From: Rhodopirellula halodulae | GTDB taxonomy: Bacteria > Planctomycetota > Planctomycetia > Pirellulales > Pirellulaceae | Assembly: GCF_020966775.1 (NCBI RefSeq) | Contig: NZ_JAJKFV010000029.1 | Coordinates: forward strand, 1,873,372-1,937,371 | Direction of reading: 5' to 3' | DNA: 64,000 nt | In this document: one piece after another, positions 2,445 to 57,308 of the stretch | How positions within the stretch are numbered: position 1 is the stretch's first letter | Layout of the letters: the number at the start of each line of letters is the position of its first letter | The notes under the pieces: model-generated | The model's database searches: none | Told to the model about the DNA's origin: nothing | Seen by the model: the letters and a program-made list of their open reading frames with translations, nothing else | Position numbers and translations under genes: made by a program

Positions 2445-2656
2445 TTGGTCGGTGATTATCGCTAGATGCGTTGCCCATCCGCGGTAATCGAGATCGGTTG
2501 CAACGGATCGGACGGTTTTGCGGTTCAAGGAAACTTGGAAGGTGGAGTCGATCGGGTTCGAATTGACGCCTTACTCACCAACATGGGGTACGCTTCAACG
2601 CGGAACCACGTCACGGGGGCGAGGCCGCAATGATTGCACCTTGTTGAGAAGCACGC

Positions 2657-4786
2657 ATGGGTTCGCCTAGCTCAGACGTCTCGGGATCCGTCTCCACCCA
2701 AACACTTGCCAACAAAAAAGCAACGTCCTGGTTTGTGTTTGCCGGTGCCACGTTGCTGGGCGCGTTCTTGGTGTTCCAAGTCCAGCCCGTGATCAGCAAG
2801 TGCGTGTTGCCATGGTTTGGTGGCACACCTGCGGTTTGGACAACCTGTTTGTTGTTCTTTCAAGTCTTGCTGTTTGGCGGCTATTTGTACGCTCATTGTC
2901 TGCGTCGATTCTTCTCGCCAACGTTGCAAGGAATCATTCATTTGTCGCTGCTGTGTGCGGCGGCGTGGTCGTTGCCGATTGCACCATCGGATGCTTGGAA
3001 GCCGATCGGTACCGAAGATCCCACGTTCACCCTGTTGTGGTTGCTGACAGCCCACGTCGCATTGCCGTATTTCGTGTTGTCCAGCACGGGACCGTTGGTG
3101 CAAGCGTGGCTGAGCTATGAAAATCAATCGGATTCCGTTTATCGACTTTATGCGTTGTCGAACGTGGGTTCGTTGGTCGCTTTGTTGAGCTATCCGTTTG
3201 TGGTCGAGCCGCTATTGTCCGTCGAACAACAGTCGATTGTTTGGTCATTGGCCTTTTATGGTTTTGTCATCATCGATGGATGGCTGGCCATCAGTCTGCT
3301 GGGGCGTCGTCGTCGAAAGCCGAATAGCAGCGACTTGGAGAGTGTGGAAGCGTCTGTTTCATCCGGACAAAGCGTGCCAATGACCGACTGGATGGTTTGG
3401 ATTGGACTGCCTGCTCTTGCTTCGGTCATGTTGTTGGTCGTGACCAGCCATGTCTGCCAAGACATTGCGGTGATGCCATTTTTGTGGGTGTTGCCGCTGA
3501 GCTTGTATCTCCTCAGCTTCATCGTCAGCTTTGATTCACCCGCCTGGTATCGTCCCAAATTGATCGCCGCCGCAACGGGTTTGGCCTTTGTCGGTATTCA
3601 GGTCAAAGGCTGGTTCCCTGGTGGATGGCAAATGCCCGTAGAGGCGCTGGCTTATCTGGTTGTCTTGTTCGGTGTGTGCTTACTCTGCCATGGTGAAACG
3701 GCGGCTCGAAAGCCCAGCACCCACCGCTTGACGTTGTACTACGCGATGATCTCGGCCGGCGGAGCGATCGGCGGCATCGTTGTGGCATTGATCTGTCCGA
3801 TGGTGTTCCAGGACTACCGTGAATTGCCTCTGGCGATGGCGTTGTCGATCGGCGTGGTGGCGGTCACATTCCTTGCCTCACGATCGTGGTTGACGACGCA
3901 GTGTGATTGGCGAATGTCCAAAGGGATCATGGGTTTGATCGTTGGAATTATTGGTTTGACCGCGGTGGTCACAACGTTGACCAGCCGAAAAGACACCATT
4001 GATCAACGTCGCAATTTTTTCGGTGTTCTTCGCGTTGAGAATGACGCTGACCGCATTCAGTTGGTGCACGGAAACACGATTCACGGTATTCAACTACACG
4101 GTGAATTGAGCCGGACACCGACGTCGTACTTTGGCTACAGCAGCGGTGTTGGTCGATTGATCAAAGCAATGCAATCAGAACAACCGCAAATGAGGATCGG
4201 TGTGATTGGGTTGGGCTGTGGTGTGTTGGCCGCTTATGGTCGTGAAGGCGACTCGATGGATATGTACGAAATCAATCCGGACGTCTTGGCGATCGCGGAA
4301 GAACACTTCACCTTTTTGAAAGACTGTCCAGCCGAAGTCCGACACCACATTGGCGACGGTCGTTTGTTGCTCGAACGGCAAACTGAAAAACGCTTTGACT
4401 TGCTGATCTTGGACGCGTTCAGCAGCGATGCGATTCCGGCTCACCTTTTGACGTTGGAAGCGATGCTGTTGTATCGCCAGCGATTGGCGAAGGACGGTGT
4501 GCTGGCGATTCATGTGTCGAACAATCACCTGGACCTGGTGCCGCTGACTCACCGGTTGTCGCATTCCATCGGGTTTGAAAGCCGATTGATCCAAAACGAT
4601 CACCGCGATCAAGTGTATACCCGCCCGTCGCGGTGGGTGATCGCCTCGGACCGTGGGGATGGATTCTGGGAAGCCGACACATTGTCGGTTGCTCAGGTGC
4701 CCGATCAAGAGTCTCTGCGTGACGCTCCGCTGTGGACGGACCAACACCACAATCTAGCAAGCGTTTTGATTTGGCCGTCTCTCTGA
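2657..4786 (+). CDS. Fused MFS/spermidine-synthase-like membrane protein
   Basis: The 709-residue protein has an N-terminal membrane half of about ten helices (from the segment starting VFAGATLLGAFLVFQVQP) and a C-terminal Rossmann-fold aminopropyltransferase-like domain from about residue 490. The cofactor glycine motif is GVIGLGCGVLAAYG near residue 513, followed by the acidic MYEINPD; FDLLILDAFSSDAIP near residue 580 matches the catalytic region of spermidine synthases. This architecture is a known bacterial family annotated as fused MFS/spermidine synthase, and its substrate is generally unproven. The soluble domain probably faces the cytoplasm. No polyamine genes are nearby, so a role in polyamine synthesis is not supported by context. 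The start is the ATG at 2657; no strong ribosome binding site is visible. Confidence 0.8.
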   Translation: MGSPSSDVSGSVSTQTLANKKATSWFVFAGATLLGAFLVFQVQPVISKCVLPWFGGTPAVWTTCLLFFQVLLFGGYLYAHCLRRFFSPTLQGIIHLSLLCAAAWSLPIAPSDAWKPIGTEDPTFTLLWLLTAHVALPYFVLSSTGPLVQAWLSYENQSDSVYRLYALSNVGSLVALLSYPFVVEPLLSVEQQSIVWSLAFYGFVIIDGWLAISLLGRRRRKPNSSDLESVEASVSSGQSVPMTDWMVWIGLPALASVMLLVVTSHVCQDIAVMPFLWVLPLSLYLLSFIVSFDSPAWYRPKLIAAATGLAFVGIQVKGWFPGGWQMPVEALAYLVVLFGVCLLCHGETAARKPSTHRLTLYYAMISAGGAIGGIVVALICPMVFQDYRELPLAMALSIGVVAVTFLASRSWLTTQCDWRMSKGIMGLIVGIIGLTAVVTTLTSRKDTIDQRRNFFGVLRVENDADRIQLVHGNTIHGIQLHGELSRTPTSYFGYSSGVGRLIKAMQSEQPQMRIGVIGLGCGVLAAYGREGDSMDMYEINPDVLAIAEEHFTFLKDCPAEVRHHIGDGRLLLERQTEKRFDLLILDAFSSDAIPAHLLTLEAMLLYRQRLAKDGVLAIHVSNNHLDLVPLTHRLSHSIGFESRLIQNDHRDQVYTRPSRWVIASDRGDGFWEADTLSVAQVPDQESLRDAPLWTDQHHNLASVLIWPSL

Positions 4787-50967: not shown

Positions 50968-52710
50968 TCAGCAACCGGTGCAGGGCGAAGCGCTGACGGT
51001 CGCGCCGCAGCTGCCGCATCCACTGCCAACCGAAGGTGCCGACTGGTACATGATCGGTGACGAGCATCCGGACGAATCACCGCCCATCATGACCGAAGGA
51101 CCAACGTGAATCGGCGCCGAAACGGCAGGAGCACTGATCGATTCGGTGCACGGTGTGAAGGATTCTTCCACCAAGGTTGGCACCATCTTGCAGACCTGGA
51201 CCTGCTTTTCTTTTGTGACGGTCACGGGAACGTCGACCGTGTATTCCTCGATCACCTGTTCCGCGACTTGGTCGTAGCGGGTGGTGGTGTAAGGTTCGAC
51301 AGTGTACTCCGGAACGTTGTAGGTGAAGCTGACTTCTTTCGTTCGTTCCTCGGTCTTGTAGGTCACGTACGGGATGGTTTCCGTTTTGGTCACCGAGGTG
51401 TACGTCAGGTGTTTGCGAACTCGGGTGCGAGTCTCTTCGTTGTACTGCACTTCTTTGCGGGTACGCGTGCGAGTCTCGTCAACGTACTTCACAACCTTCT
51501 TGGTTCCCGTGCGGGTTTCAGGTTGGTAGACGATCGTGGTGCACTCGTAAGGGACCTGCGTGGCCTGTTGTTCGTAAACGGTGTAGTTGACGACCTGCGA
51601 TTCGGTGGTGCTGGTGGTGACCGGGACTTCTTCTGTCACGACATTGGGCACCCAAACACGTTTGGTCACGGTGGTGGTTGCCGATCCACATCCGGCGGAA
51701 GCGGAAGCAGCGTAAGACACCCCTCCGCCACAGCCTGCGTACGATTGGCCACAACCCGTGTTGCATCCACCGCAAGAGGAAACGCAACCGCCACAGGAGC
51801 GACATCCGCCGCAACGACTGACGCATCCGCAAGCGGAAGACGACGAGAGCGAAGGCTGGCAACCGCTTGAGTAAGCAACGTTGGTCGCCACGGGAGCCGC
51901 GGCCACTTCAACGACTTGTTCTTCCCAGTGGCCGTAGTCTTTCGTGACCGTTTTCATCGTCGTTGTGGGAACGGCGACTTCGATGGTGCGGCTCTTGGTG
52001 ACCGGAACCGCATTGACCACGGTGCGGGTCTTTTGAGTCGTGACCGCTTGAGGAACGTTGACGGTGTAAGTGAAGCTCTCGTCCACCAATTTGGCGACTT
52101 TGACCGTGTAGGTTTCTGGCACATCGACCAAGGTTGGGACACGAACAGTGTACTCTTCAGGAACCTCGTTCCACTGCGGAACGCTTTCCGTGACTTGCAC
52201 CTGCTTTTCTTCTTTTACAGGAACCAAGACCGAGTATTTGATGGTTTTGGTATCGGTCTTTGGAACGTTGACGACCTTCGTGCGGTAGTTCTCTTCCGTC
52301 CCGGGCACGGTCTTGTAAACCGTTTTGGTACGGAAACGAGTTTCCGGTTGGCTTTCCGTCACGTTGACCATGCGGGTTTCGGTCACGTAGGTCGGCTTCA
52401 TCACAACGCGATAGCCAACGACAGGTTCGCAAATCGTTTCGCGGGCCGGCGAAACGGATTGAACCACGGAAGTTCCGCCCAGCACGGACGTGCCGCAGCT
52501 GCTGGCGTATCCGCCGGAGTAGCTTGCACTGGGAACGACGTAGCCTTGGCCGCAGCCAATGGCACCGCCGCAACCGCTGCTGACGACGGAGGTGGATACG
52601 CCACACGGATCGGAGCAGCCTCCACATGGCATGCACTGAGCCATCGAAATGGTCGCGGTGAAAGCGAGGCACGCCGCGGCGACCCCCGCCATCATGGATC
52701 GTAAATTCAC
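50968..52710 (-). CDS. Cys-rich YTV-repeat cell-envelope protein
   Basis: The 580-residue secreted protein has a signal peptide (MAGVAAACLAFTATISMAQ). Two Cys/Gly/Ser-rich blocks (about residues 25-60 and 285-345, with CGGC and CNTGC steps) alternate with two long beta-rich blocks in which Tyr-Thr-Val motifs recur (YTVRVP, YTVKVA, YTVNVP, YTVYEQ, YTVEPY, YTVDVP). VTKEKQVQV and TRTRKEVQY are further repeat units, and the C-terminus is Cys-rich again. Planctomycetes are known to have YTV-domain proteins in their cell wall fraction, and this protein fits that type. Disulfide cross-linking in the envelope is an inference. The composition is unlike its neighbours. Confidence 0.88.
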   Translation of the reverse strand: MNLRSMMAGVAAACLAFTATISMAQCMPCGGCSDPCGVSTSVVSSGCGGAIGCGQGYVVPSASYSGGYASSCGTSVLGGTSVVQSVSPARETICEPVVGYRVVMKPTYVTETRMVNVTESQPETRFRTKTVYKTVPGTEENYRTKVVNVPKTDTKTIKYSVLVPVKEEKQVQVTESVPQWNEVPEEYTVRVPTLVDVPETYTVKVAKLVDESFTYTVNVPQAVTTQKTRTVVNAVPVTKSRTIEVAVPTTTMKTVTKDYGHWEEQVVEVAAAPVATNVAYSSGCQPSLSSSSACGCVSRCGGCRSCGGCVSSCGGCNTGCGQSYAGCGGGVSYAASASAGCGSATTTVTKRVWVPNVVTEEVPVTTSTTESQVVNYTVYEQQATQVPYECTTIVYQPETRTGTKKVVKYVDETRTRTRKEVQYNEETRTRVRKHLTYTSVTKTETIPYVTYKTEERTKEVSFTYNVPEYTVEPYTTTRYDQVAEQVIEEYTVDVPVTVTKEKQVQVCKMVPTLVEESFTPCTESISAPAVSAPIHVGPSVMMGGDSSGCSSPIMYQSAPSVGSGCGSCGATVSASPCTGC

Positions 52711-54721: not shown

Positions 54722-55026
54722 TTCGAGGCGAGTGACTTCGCTTCGCCAGCCAACACCGTGAAACGGCGGTTTCACGCCAATTATCAGAGCTTTTTTTGCT
54801 TTCTTCTGGAAAAGACTCAAGAAACGCGAAAGGGCCGTTTCGATTGGGGTTGCCGCGGCGTGTGTGGATCTCCGAGTATCGCGCGACGGACGAGGACGAG
54901 TTGAGGTCGCGAAGGATCGCGGTCTGACTCAATCAGACTCCTCGCCCGAACACGACGGCTTGGGTTCATAGCAATGATTCCAAGCGGTGCGGAGCAAACT
55001 TTTCTATCGTCCAAGGAGGGACGGGA
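54722..55026. other. 305-base non-coding stretch with a weak terminator-like hairpin
   Basis: No gene is visible. A stem GTGAAAC (54758-54764) with GTTTCAC (54769-54775) has a loop GGCG; seven T follow 15 bases later (54791-54797). It may end the TPR transcript weakly. The rest likely holds the promoter of the next gene. Confidence 0.45.
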
Positions 55027-56571
55027 GTGCACACGACTCATCATTCGGCTGGTGTTCTCGACCGATCGCGGCAACTTCGTTGGTTTGGTCAGCATCTGAT
55101 CATTCAGTGCTTGGCGGTGTGTTTCGCGATTCAATCGTTCGCTTCCACGGCGGTCGGCAGCGACGCGATCTTGCTCGAGTTTTCATCCGCACAGTGCGGC
55201 CCATGCCAAGCGATGAAGCCCGTTGTTTCGGAATTGATCGCTCGCGGAGTCCCGGTTCGCCAAGTCGATGTGCAGAGCGAGCCGCATTTGACTCGCCGCT
55301 TTGGTATCCGCAGCACGCCGACGTACATCGTCCTGCGAGAGGGCAAAGAGGTCACGCGACTGTTGGGCGTTCAAACGATCAGTGAGCTCACTGATGCACT
55401 CAGCCAATCCGCCGCTGGGCCTTTGATCCCGACTCGTAGCACCACCAATCAACCCAGCCTCAACGAACCGCAAACTCGACTGGCACCTCTGACCTCGGGT
55501 CAGAACGCGGTGGATCGAAGTCCCCGTCGAGCCATTCGTAAAGAACGTGCGAGTGAACCGTGGGATTCGGATTGGCAATCGCTCAACCAAGGTCCCGCGG
55601 AATCGGCCACCCAGTTGACCCACACGCAAGACGCATCGATGGAACCCATGCCGAGCATGTCCTTGGCCGATGCGATCGAGAAAGCAAAATCTGCCACCGT
55701 TCGACTGCGAGTCTTCGATGGTCGTGGTTACGGTGCTGGAACCGGAACGATTGTCGACACCAATGGCGATGAAGCTTTGATTCTGACCTGCGGCCACCTT
55801 TTCCGCGACGGCGAAGGCAAAGACAAAATCGAAGTGGATTTGTTTGTTGCGGGCGAAGTACGAACCGTCATGGGACAAGTCGTCGATTATGACGCGGGTG
55901 ATCGTGACATTGGTTTGGTGGCAATTCGTCCCGGGTTCCCCGTCACACCAGTCAAAGTATTGCCGGCTGGCGAAGTCGTCAAAGTGGGCCAGACGGCGTT
56001 CAGCTTTGGTTGTGATCGCGGTGATCCGCCGAGTCGTCGCGACACGCGAATCACTGGCGTCGACAAGTACAACCAAAACATCGGTGCGTCGAACTTGGAG
56101 ATCGATGGTGCCCCGATCGATGGTCGCAGCGGTGGAGGTTTGTTCGACGATCGGGGTGTACTGATTGGAGTGTGCAACGCGGCTGACTACAAATCGGATC
56201 TTGGAATTTACACCGGTCCGCGGTCCGTCTATTGGCAACTGGATCGAATCAATCTGACCAACCTCTACCAAGGTGGTGCTGCTGATATGCCTCGCGAGCA
56301 AATCGCCTCGAACAATCAGCAACCAACCCGCGAGCAGTCTTTGAATGCTCCTGCTCAGACGCCTCGCAACGAATTCACCATGGCAGCGGCAGGAAGCAGC
56401 CCATCGCCAATCGCCCAAGTTTCTGCAACGAAAGAGCCTCGGACTTCGGCAACGGAAATGATCGTGATCTTACGAGATCCCAACGGTCAGCAACGCGAGC
56501 AAGTCATGACGCTAAACCAGCCCGATCCGGATTTGGTTCAGCGAATCCGTCAGGCGGCGATGGGGCGATAA
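55027..56571 (+). CDS. Secreted thioredoxin-trypsin fusion protein
   Basis: The 514-residue product starts with GTG; a signal region (CLAVCFAIQSFASTAVGS) leads to a thioredoxin fold at about 46-130 with CGPC at residues 57-60 and the cis-Pro segment RSTPTYIVL. A 90-residue linker is followed by a trypsin-like domain at about 222-410 with a readable triad: His257 in LTCGHLF, Asp294 in DRDIGL and Ser368 in GRSGGG. The C-terminal 100 residues are disordered-looking. The combination suggests a periplasmic protease with redox activity, or a quality-control protein; this is inference. The GNAT-like frame begins two bases after its stop. Confidence 0.85.
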   Translation: MHTTHHSAGVLDRSRQLRWFGQHLIIQCLAVCFAIQSFASTAVGSDAILLEFSSAQCGPCQAMKPVVSELIARGVPVRQVDVQSEPHLTRRFGIRSTPTYIVLREGKEVTRLLGVQTISELTDALSQSAAGPLIPTRSTTNQPSLNEPQTRLAPLTSGQNAVDRSPRRAIRKERASEPWDSDWQSLNQGPAESATQLTHTQDASMEPMPSMSLADAIEKAKSATVRLRVFDGRGYGAGTGTIVDTNGDEALILTCGHLFRDGEGKDKIEVDLFVAGEVRTVMGQVVDYDAGDRDIGLVAIRPGFPVTPVKVLPAGEVVKVGQTAFSFGCDRGDPPSRRDTRITGVDKYNQNIGASNLEIDGAPIDGRSGGGLFDDRGVLIGVCNAADYKSDLGIYTGPRSVYWQLDRINLTNLYQGGAADMPREQIASNNQQPTREQSLNAPAQTPRNEFTMAAAGSSPSPIAQVSATKEPRTSATEMIVILRDPNGQQREQVMTLNQPDPDLVQRIRQAAMGR

Positions 56572-56573
56572 CT

Positions 56574-57308
56574 TTGTTCCGCCGCGGCCTGCTGTACACG
56601 CTCGGCATCATTTGGTGCCGAATCGTACCAGCGTCTTTGCTGCGATACCGCCGATGCGTGATCGTACGTTTGGCGGCGCGAGAAACGTCCGGGGCTGAGC
56701 ACCTAGCAGCAAATTTCGCCGCCCGTCGATCGAGAACGCCAGACGAATTGGCTTCCGTTGAGCGCGTGACGTTGTATTCACCGCCATCCCAAGATGACGT
56801 CACCGCGAAAGAAGCTCCGATGCCGAAAGCCCATGGCATTTGGCGAGAGCGTGACTCACCCGTCGCGCCCGCGTTGGGTGGAGCGTGGATCGCGGAAGAC
56901 GTGTTTGATGAACACGAGCTACACGTTCGCATCTCGCTGGACACGCAGCAACGATGGTTGTTTGCCGCGAGGGTTGAGAAAGGCCAGCGAGGTCAGGGCG
57001 TCTACTCCGCGTTGCTGGACGTGATTTTGCAAAGCGATGCAAATGTCTGGGCGGCAATCAATCCGTCCAACGTTGCCAGCATGCGTGCGCATAAAAGTTT
57101 CGTCGTCGAAACAGCGGGTGTCTTCTGCGTCTTGCGAGTGGGACCCTTTGCATGGGGACGAGTCGCGAATGCGGGTGGCTCTGTTCCTGCAAAATCGGCG
57201 GAGCCGGCCTTCAGTGATCACCGCTCGCACGTCTTGAAATTGCAGGACTGCTGCACCACAAATGGCAAAGAAAAACCGCTCGTGATTTGCATCACAAGCG
57301 GTCAGTGA
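56574..57308 (+). CDS. GNAT-like acetyltransferase family protein (start uncertain)
   Basis: The frame starts at TTG 56574, two bases after the preceding stop, and no ATG gives a better start; a GTG in the VIVRLA segment is an alternative. Near residue 130-180, AARVEKGQRGQGVYSALLDVILQS then WAAINPSNVASMRAHKSFVVE match the acetyl-CoA-binding core of GNAT enzymes (R/Q-x-x-G). The N-terminal part agrees poorly with the family. The end of the gene overlaps a hairpin (57275-57302) that acts as terminator for the opposite-strand response regulator gene, so the C-terminal residues are encoded by the hairpin. The substrate is unknown and the gene call is moderate. Confidence 0.55.
   Translation: MFRRGLLYTLGIIWCRIVPASLLRYRRCVIVRLAARETSGAEHLAANFAARRSRTPDELASVERVTLYSPPSQDDVTAKEAPMPKAHGIWRERDSPVAPALGGAWIAEDVFDEHELHVRISLDTQQRWLFAARVEKGQRGQGVYSALLDVILQSDANVWAAINPSNVASMRAHKSFVVETAGVFCVLRVGPFAWGRVANAGGSVPAKSAEPAFSDHRSHVLKLQDCCTTNGKEKPLVICITSGQ
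57275..57302 (-). terminator. Terminator of the response regulator gene, inside the end of the GNAT-like gene
   Basis: The minus-strand stem ACCGCT (57275-57280) with AGCGGT (57297-57302), with GTGAT/ATCAC continuing inside, is followed by TTTTTCTTT on the minus strand. It lies about 60 bases beyond the stop of the response regulator gene. Confidence 0.75.

Follow-up and report, generated by a model that had tools for sequence, protein, structure and literature searches.

Quality control in the cell envelope normally relies on separate proteins for the rearrangement of disulfides and for degradation, and the cell envelope of the planctomycetes is unusual. Links between thiol state and proteolysis by members of the Deg family are described in PMC3446894: in cyanobacteria, the Deg protease HhoA accepts PsbO as a substrate once thioredoxin has reduced it, and the introduction of that paper states that the activity of Deg1 and Deg2 depends on the redox potential. 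The mycobacterial MarP is reported in PMC4992679 to be linked to oxidative stress and to a disulfide that is tied to the active site, with two different wordings for the direction of this effect. No description of a fusion between a thioredoxin domain and a protease was found in the open-licence PMC papers searched, in agreement with the original prediction, which knew of no well-described protein with its domains in this order; PMC3237569, which was considered as a possible description, deals with a different subject.

A fusion of this kind is encoded in the window, that is, the 64,000 nucleotides from Rhodopirellula halodulae that were analysed here, as one uninterrupted frame of 514 amino acids on the forward strand (55027-56571). 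The fusion is real, conserved and apparently undescribed, both of its parts belong to well-known superfamilies, and it consists of an HtrA-like protease without a PDZ domain that is joined to a thioredoxin (Table 1). The CGPC motif at residues 57-60 and the triad His257, Asp294 and Ser368 had been read from the sequence at the outset, and all of these coordinates and residues were correct on translation. The triad residues are placed in the contexts CGHLF (H257), DIGLV (D294) and GRSGGGL (S368).

Table 1. Features of the gene for the thioredoxin-protease fusion, with positions in the window
Feature	Position	Strand	Basis
AAGGAGG ribosome-binding site	55013..55019	+	read from sequence; 7 bases upstream of GTG start
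N-terminal export signal or anchor, residues 1-45, hydrophobic core HLIIQCLAVCFAI	55027..55161	+	hydropathy
Thioredoxin domain, residues 42-125	55150..55401	+	PF00085 E 6e-13
CGPC redox motif, residues 57-60	55195..55206	+	C57 in 156/160, C60 in 158/160 distinct rows
Variable linker, residues 126-205	55402..55641	+	length spread among aligned rows
HtrA-like trypsin domain, residues 206-420 (Trypsin_2 match 238-382)	55642..56286	+	PF13365 E 5e-20; AF2 model; DegP Z 25.3
Conserved Cys255, two residues N-terminal of His257	55789..55791	+	158/160 rows
Catalytic His257	55795..55797	+	158/160 rows
Catalytic Asp294	55906..55908	+	159/160 rows
Conserved Cys329	56011..56013	+	158/160 rows
Catalytic Ser368 in GRSGGG	56128..56130	+	Ser in 158/160, Cys in 2/160 rows
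Conserved Cys383	56173..56175	+	160/160 rows
Conserved C-terminal tail, residues 471-514	56437..56568	+	by eye, many of 32 family rows inspected

Relatives were collected from 180 loci, which comprise the strongest matches and further ones selected by hand to cover different families, and are not a random sample. A frame of at least 60 bits was present at 175 of these loci, 164 frames were aligned after identical ones had been dropped, and the removal of four repeats of the protease domain left 160 distinct rows, including L161, which is cut by a contig end ahead of the thioredoxin part. All nine positions considered here (C57, C60, P98, C255, H257, D294, C329, S368 and C383) are kept in 153 of the 160 rows. 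In 149 of 155 rows, hydropathy shows a hydrophobic stretch N-terminal of the thioredoxin domain, compared with 3 of 153 for the linker (rows with fewer than 20 residues to evaluate were excluded, and five of the 160 were too short ahead of the thioredoxin domain). This suggests that the protein is likely exported, as had been proposed. The segment corresponding to residues 128-212 ranges from 13 to 193 amino acids with a median of 74 (n = 159 rows, the contig-cut L161 being left out), which fits a tether. The Pfam scan (E <= 0.01) detected no PDZ domain in the fusion protein, and the Pfam scan gave no match for the tail. This tail produced one match per genome in 13 of 13 genomes of the genus and none in seven other genomes in the same search; it is folded as strand-strand-helix in the low-confidence full-length model only (pLDDT 38.5, 4 sequences).

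The thioredoxin arm scores 49.1 bits with PF00085 (cut-off 23.5), and with its CGPC motif and cis-proline P98 it belongs to the thioredoxin superfamily. It is not a thioredoxin proper, with 54.6 bits for the equivalog TIGR01068 against a curated cut-off of 96.8. The domain is short and, as far as can be judged from the sequence, the first strand and helix that usually come after the signal seem to be missing. PF00085 was matched (E <= 0.01) by all 150 N-terminal parts scanned, which comprise that of the fusion in the window and 149 of the 162 usable rows in the 164-row set (four being repeats and 13 left out). While the middle residues of the CxxC motif vary, with CGPC in 97, CPPC in 15, CVYC in 7 and CAPC in 7 of the 160 rows and 22 forms besides CGPC and CPPC, the cysteines stay, suggesting that redox chemistry is what is kept. 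The divergence of this part from Rhodopirellula europaea is dN 0.10 and dS 2.2, the latter being near saturation. An extra cysteine is present at residue 99, directly after the cis-proline, in 52 of 164 rows. Thioredoxin matches in frames of 1376 amino acids (G530 C1:233485) and 1347 amino acids (G590 C1:243873) indicate another large thioredoxin-containing protein in the class.

The three relatives L029, L031 and L083 have lost the CxxC motif; they retain the remainder of that domain and the cis-proline (kept in 159 of the 160 distinct rows), as well as the triad and all three protease cysteines. Together with the lack of a PDZ domain, their retention of the remaining domain is consistent with a thioredoxin domain that serves mainly as a substrate-binding or chaperone-like arm in place of the PDZ domain of HtrA, with redox chemistry being secondary. 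However, of the 159 rows that reach this part of the protein, 156 have both CxxC cysteines, more than binding alone would need, and we consider such a role quite unlikely.

The protease part matches PF13365 with 73.2 bits (cut-off 27.6) and is, with its H257-D294-S368 triad, a trypsin-like peptidase. The AF2 model of residues 206-420 (mean pLDDT 88.9, pTM 0.87, 19 sequences) shows the double-barrel chymotrypsin fold. Foldseek ranked DegP and MarP chains at the top for this model, and VIA-align superimposed it on DegP with Z 25.3 (rmsd 2.7, 192 aligned) and on MarP (3k6y) with Z 24.1 (rmsd 2.0, 183 aligned). The domain is nevertheless outside the HtrA/DegP family, with no PDZ domain after the protease and 26.4, 25.9 and 17.4 bits against the NCBIfam HtrA cut-offs of 470, 450 and 416.2, and outside the MarP family (NF033740), with 16.8 bits against a cut-off of 250. 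The GRSGGG motif is unvaried across the family except for a change from serine to cysteine in two rows, and the divergence of the protease part from R. europaea is dN 0.08 and dS 1.6, with dS again near saturation. Additional cysteines are found at residue 359, ahead of the loop of the catalytic serine (38 of 160 rows), and at residue 480 in the C-terminal tail (84 of 160).

PF13365 was matched (E <= 0.01) by all 124 protease parts scanned, consisting of that of the fusion in the window and 123 of 163 rows that were chosen at less than 75% identity. Since every protease part and every N-terminal part scanned matches its respective Pfam family, the fusion is more than chance. A search of 148 genomes with the protease profile gave family scores of 201-273 bits in 15 genomes and 77.8 bits for the best other protease. 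All 15 family-level matches are genes that align with the fusion family, and the profile found no free-standing cellular version of the domain in the 148 sampled genomes. Judged by these scores, the protease domains of cellular origin form a closed family.

The whole genome contains one copy of the fusion, and three other matches to the protein are of thioredoxin length only. Within the order, a match at E <= 1e-20 was obtained for 268 of 296 genomes (and for 197 of the 206 of good quality). Many of these matches span only the protease part of the query; the thioredoxin stretch is present in 159 of 159 rows that reach this region. No match at this threshold was obtained for 28 of the 296 genomes, and among 20 of these that were listed, six belong to genus g96 and two to the family of the window. 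Matches were found in 170 of 248 genomes of the class; 14 of the 20 listed genomes without a match are members of family f116, from which no matching row was recovered. In the sample of the phylum, 35 of 343 genomes match at E <= 1e-12, and 28 of these belong to the class of the window, while the seven others span the thioredoxin part only. The best named relative is that of R. europaea (L034), with 75% identity over the full length in the same fused frame, and a pattern scan of genome contigs retrieved three close relatives. From the sequences sampled, namely the phylum genomes and one contig pattern scan, the fusion is judged to be old and confined to part of one class. An assembly join or a frameshift of two genes, the source of error named in the original prediction, is excluded by the fused frame in R. 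europaea and by its recurrence across the order. The spread over the order, like the phage relatives described below, was beyond the view of that prediction.

The remaining exceptions to the nine positions are found in L059, L062, L077 (D294E) and the contig-cut L161. In L059 and L062, His257 and Ser368 are lost, the latter by a change from serine to cysteine, along with C255 and C329, while the CxxC motif and C383 are kept. These two rows, from the genomes G382 and G400 of a single genus, represent a pseudoprotease lineage. They form one clade (support 0.989), L031 and L083 another (0.998), and L029 is placed apart, which points to about three loss events besides L077. As the active site of either arm can be lost while that of the other stays, neither arm strictly needs the other. 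This loss of one active site with the other intact in a few lineages would be expected if the domains were independent and fused only for joint export, the protease cysteines forming a plain structural disulfide. The number of order and class genomes that carry the family, the presence of the thioredoxin stretch in every covering row and the membership of all 15 protease matches in fusion-aligned genes argue against this reading, which we regard as distinctly improbable.

When viral contigs were scanned with the protease profile, 19 loci with 15 distinct domains of 54-150 bits were revealed; the patterns used, GRSGGGLF and a [VI][LVI]TC[GA]H-type stretch, bias the motif counts in this set. The contig L238 encodes a thioredoxin-protease fusion at 2605-3840 (the same gene is located at 5001-6236 in L247), with 35.1 bits for PF00085, 46.9 bits for PF13365 and an alanine at the C255 site, and the adjoining frames match phage helicase and primase families. 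This fusion is followed by a short collagen-like stretch with a Pfam match below the cut-off. In the FastTree phylogeny, L238 groups with the cellular L061 and L154 (support 0.984), L228 and L229 are inside another cellular clade (0.962 and 0.943), and the other twelve viral domains are placed elsewhere; all 15 are nested in the minimal clade encompassing the cellular family (0.877). These placements suggest that phages captured the gene more than once. All three protease cysteines are present in 3 of the 15 viral domains, C329 and C383 without C255 in one, C255 and C329 in two (one of which, L242, is doubtfully aligned), C255 alone in eight and none in one. L228, L230 and L236 have the three cysteines on phage contigs and show no thioredoxin match.

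Other viral proteins differ in their layout. In L229 (413-1786), the protease precedes a collagen-like stretch with a match to tail-fibre PHROGs. In L240 (2629-4521), L241 (2520-4364) and L244 (2551-4428), the GRSGGG protease comes first and is followed by a segment with CPPC or CRNC, which may be a degenerate thioredoxin-like domain, so that the order of the two would be reversed. This segment has no Pfam thioredoxin match, and its profile comparison with the thioredoxin alignment gave a probability of 7.4. Among known phages, the query P0001 recovered 39 records, of which the 20 listed are all of thioredoxin length, and the query L244 recovered none. In plasmids, 140 records match, the eight listed all being of thioredoxin length, and none of the 140 covers 80% of the query.

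The conservation of C255, C329 and C383 equals that of the catalytic residues; the original prediction was silent on these cysteines and on the conserved tail. By alignment, all three lie in active-site segments. In the secondary structure of the model, C255 is located between strand 249-254 and His257, at His minus 2, C329 directly after strand 323-328, and C383 inside strand 379-387, the one that follows the serine loop. From their motifs, we take these sites to be equivalent to approximately residues 55, 141 and 213 of chymotrypsin, each of which is in the surroundings of the active site. The window genome has 17 Trypsin_2 matches, and 15 of the 16 others could be aligned to the family profile (L196 did not align). 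None of the 15 has a cysteine at the C255, C329 or C383 site, with some being weakly aligned and several lacking at least one of the sites. The 15 nearest non-fused proteases of the phylum have a cysteine at the C329 site in seven cases, at the C383 site in two and at the C255 site in none.

These cysteines are the basis of the main rival to the explanation that we prefer, namely a self-regulated protease, in which a disulfide among C255, C329 and C383 by the active site would lock or stabilise the enzyme and the thioredoxin arm, or the periplasmic redox state, would open or close it. The arm would then mainly target its own protease and not substrates. Such a latch is consistent with the conservation and placement of the three cysteines, with the loss of C255 and C329 along with His257 and Ser368 in the pseudoprotease clade, with the lack of the cysteines in the alignable paralogues, despite the sites missing from several, and with the active-site-tied disulfide reported in PMC4992679 for MarP, a close fold match. 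However, the three relatives without CxxC retain all three cysteines, the viral L228, L230, L233 and L236 have two or three aligned cysteines and no thioredoxin match, three cysteines leave one unpaired, and a cysteine at the C329 site is shared by seven of the 15 non-fused proteases. We consider the latch doubtful. The most far-reaching form of this idea is a self-contained, redox-switched protease across much of the planctomycete class, in which the thioredoxin arm would open the C255/C329/C383 disulfide, so that one chain senses the thiol state and switches proteolysis, with phages having taken the gene more than once; this form appears unlikely.

The genome neighbourhood revealed no conserved neighbour gene in 24 regions of about 8-17 kb, and only one neighbour family occurs in more than three of them. 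This family, a divergent gene of about 700 amino acids in 6 of the 24 regions, is by eye a methionyl-tRNA synthetase and gives no functional hint, and an operon partner was rejected. No conserved neighbour in these regions would thus link the fusion to a pathway. In the window, a frame of 244 amino acids (56574-57308, +) starts 3 bases past the last base of the stop codon of the fusion gene; it contains RGQGVYSALLD and is acetyltransferase-like by eye, with no Pfam match. A frame of 275 amino acids occupies the equivalent place in L034. A repetitive cysteine-rich protein (50968-52710, -) has a YTV match (PF07639). The window genome also contains a single DsbD_TM match, which could represent a reducing route, and two VKOR matches, representing an oxidising one, so that both may exist in the envelope.

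Since both active sites are strongly constrained in the aligned relatives, disulfide chemistry and proteolysis are likely to be functionally linked, which partly supports the original prediction that the protein may couple disulfide status to proteolysis in the periplasm. The explanation that we prefer for the two-enzyme protein is that it reduces and then cuts its substrates, to which we assign a tentative probability of about 0.42. The thioredoxin arm would be held reduced by an envelope thiol system and would open incorrect or harmful disulfides of envelope proteins, and the HtrA-like protease, on its flexible linker, would cut the loosened chains ahead of re-oxidation; the three protease cysteines may add a redox latch. 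This explanation is based on the retention of both CxxC cysteines (despite their variable middle residues), the cis-proline, the triad and the three protease cysteines, on the low dN relative to dS of both parts against R. europaea, on a linker that varies as a tether would, on the DsbD_TM and VKOR matches, and on the precedent of PsbO and HhoA. The separable arms, the lack of a conserved neighbour, the three cysteines without a thioredoxin domain on phage contigs and the 28 order genomes without a match count against it. The envelope location, the reductase direction, the passage of the same substrate between the arms and the redox control by the protease cysteines are what we infer.

Both activities appear to be combined in one chain that is kept by most sampled genomes of the order and many of the class, and which may first reduce and then degrade damaged envelope proteins. 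The fusion therefore lends itself to a clean test of whether proteolysis is fed directly by the reduction of disulfides, and gives a lead on how planctomycetes maintain their cell envelope. With three cysteines in active-site segments, the redox control of an HtrA-like enzyme also becomes directly testable.

The known proteins closest to the thioredoxin arm are the periplasmic thioredoxin-like (TlpA-like) proteins. The arm shares the CxxC motif, the cis-proline and the Pfam match with such proteins and differs in its fusion to a protease. The HtrA/Deg proteases (DegP, DegS, DegQ and AlgW) have the protease fold, the H-D-S triad and a probable envelope location in common with the fusion, but the fusion has no PDZ domain, a thioredoxin domain in front and three conserved cysteines, and it contains GRSGGG where most paralogues in the window genome contain GNSGG or GDSGG. 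MarP (Rv3671c), a periplasmic serine protease of mycobacteria, also shares the fold of the protease, but has membrane helices where the fusion has its thioredoxin arm. The disulfide of the MarP homologue MAP0403 joins residues 214 and 397, and is said in PMC4992679 to be present also in MarP; it connects other motifs than those that hold the cysteines of the fusion. Finally, HhoA, which is free of cysteines, and thioredoxin are two separate proteins (PMC3446894), whereas the fusion combines the protease and the thioredoxin in one chain.
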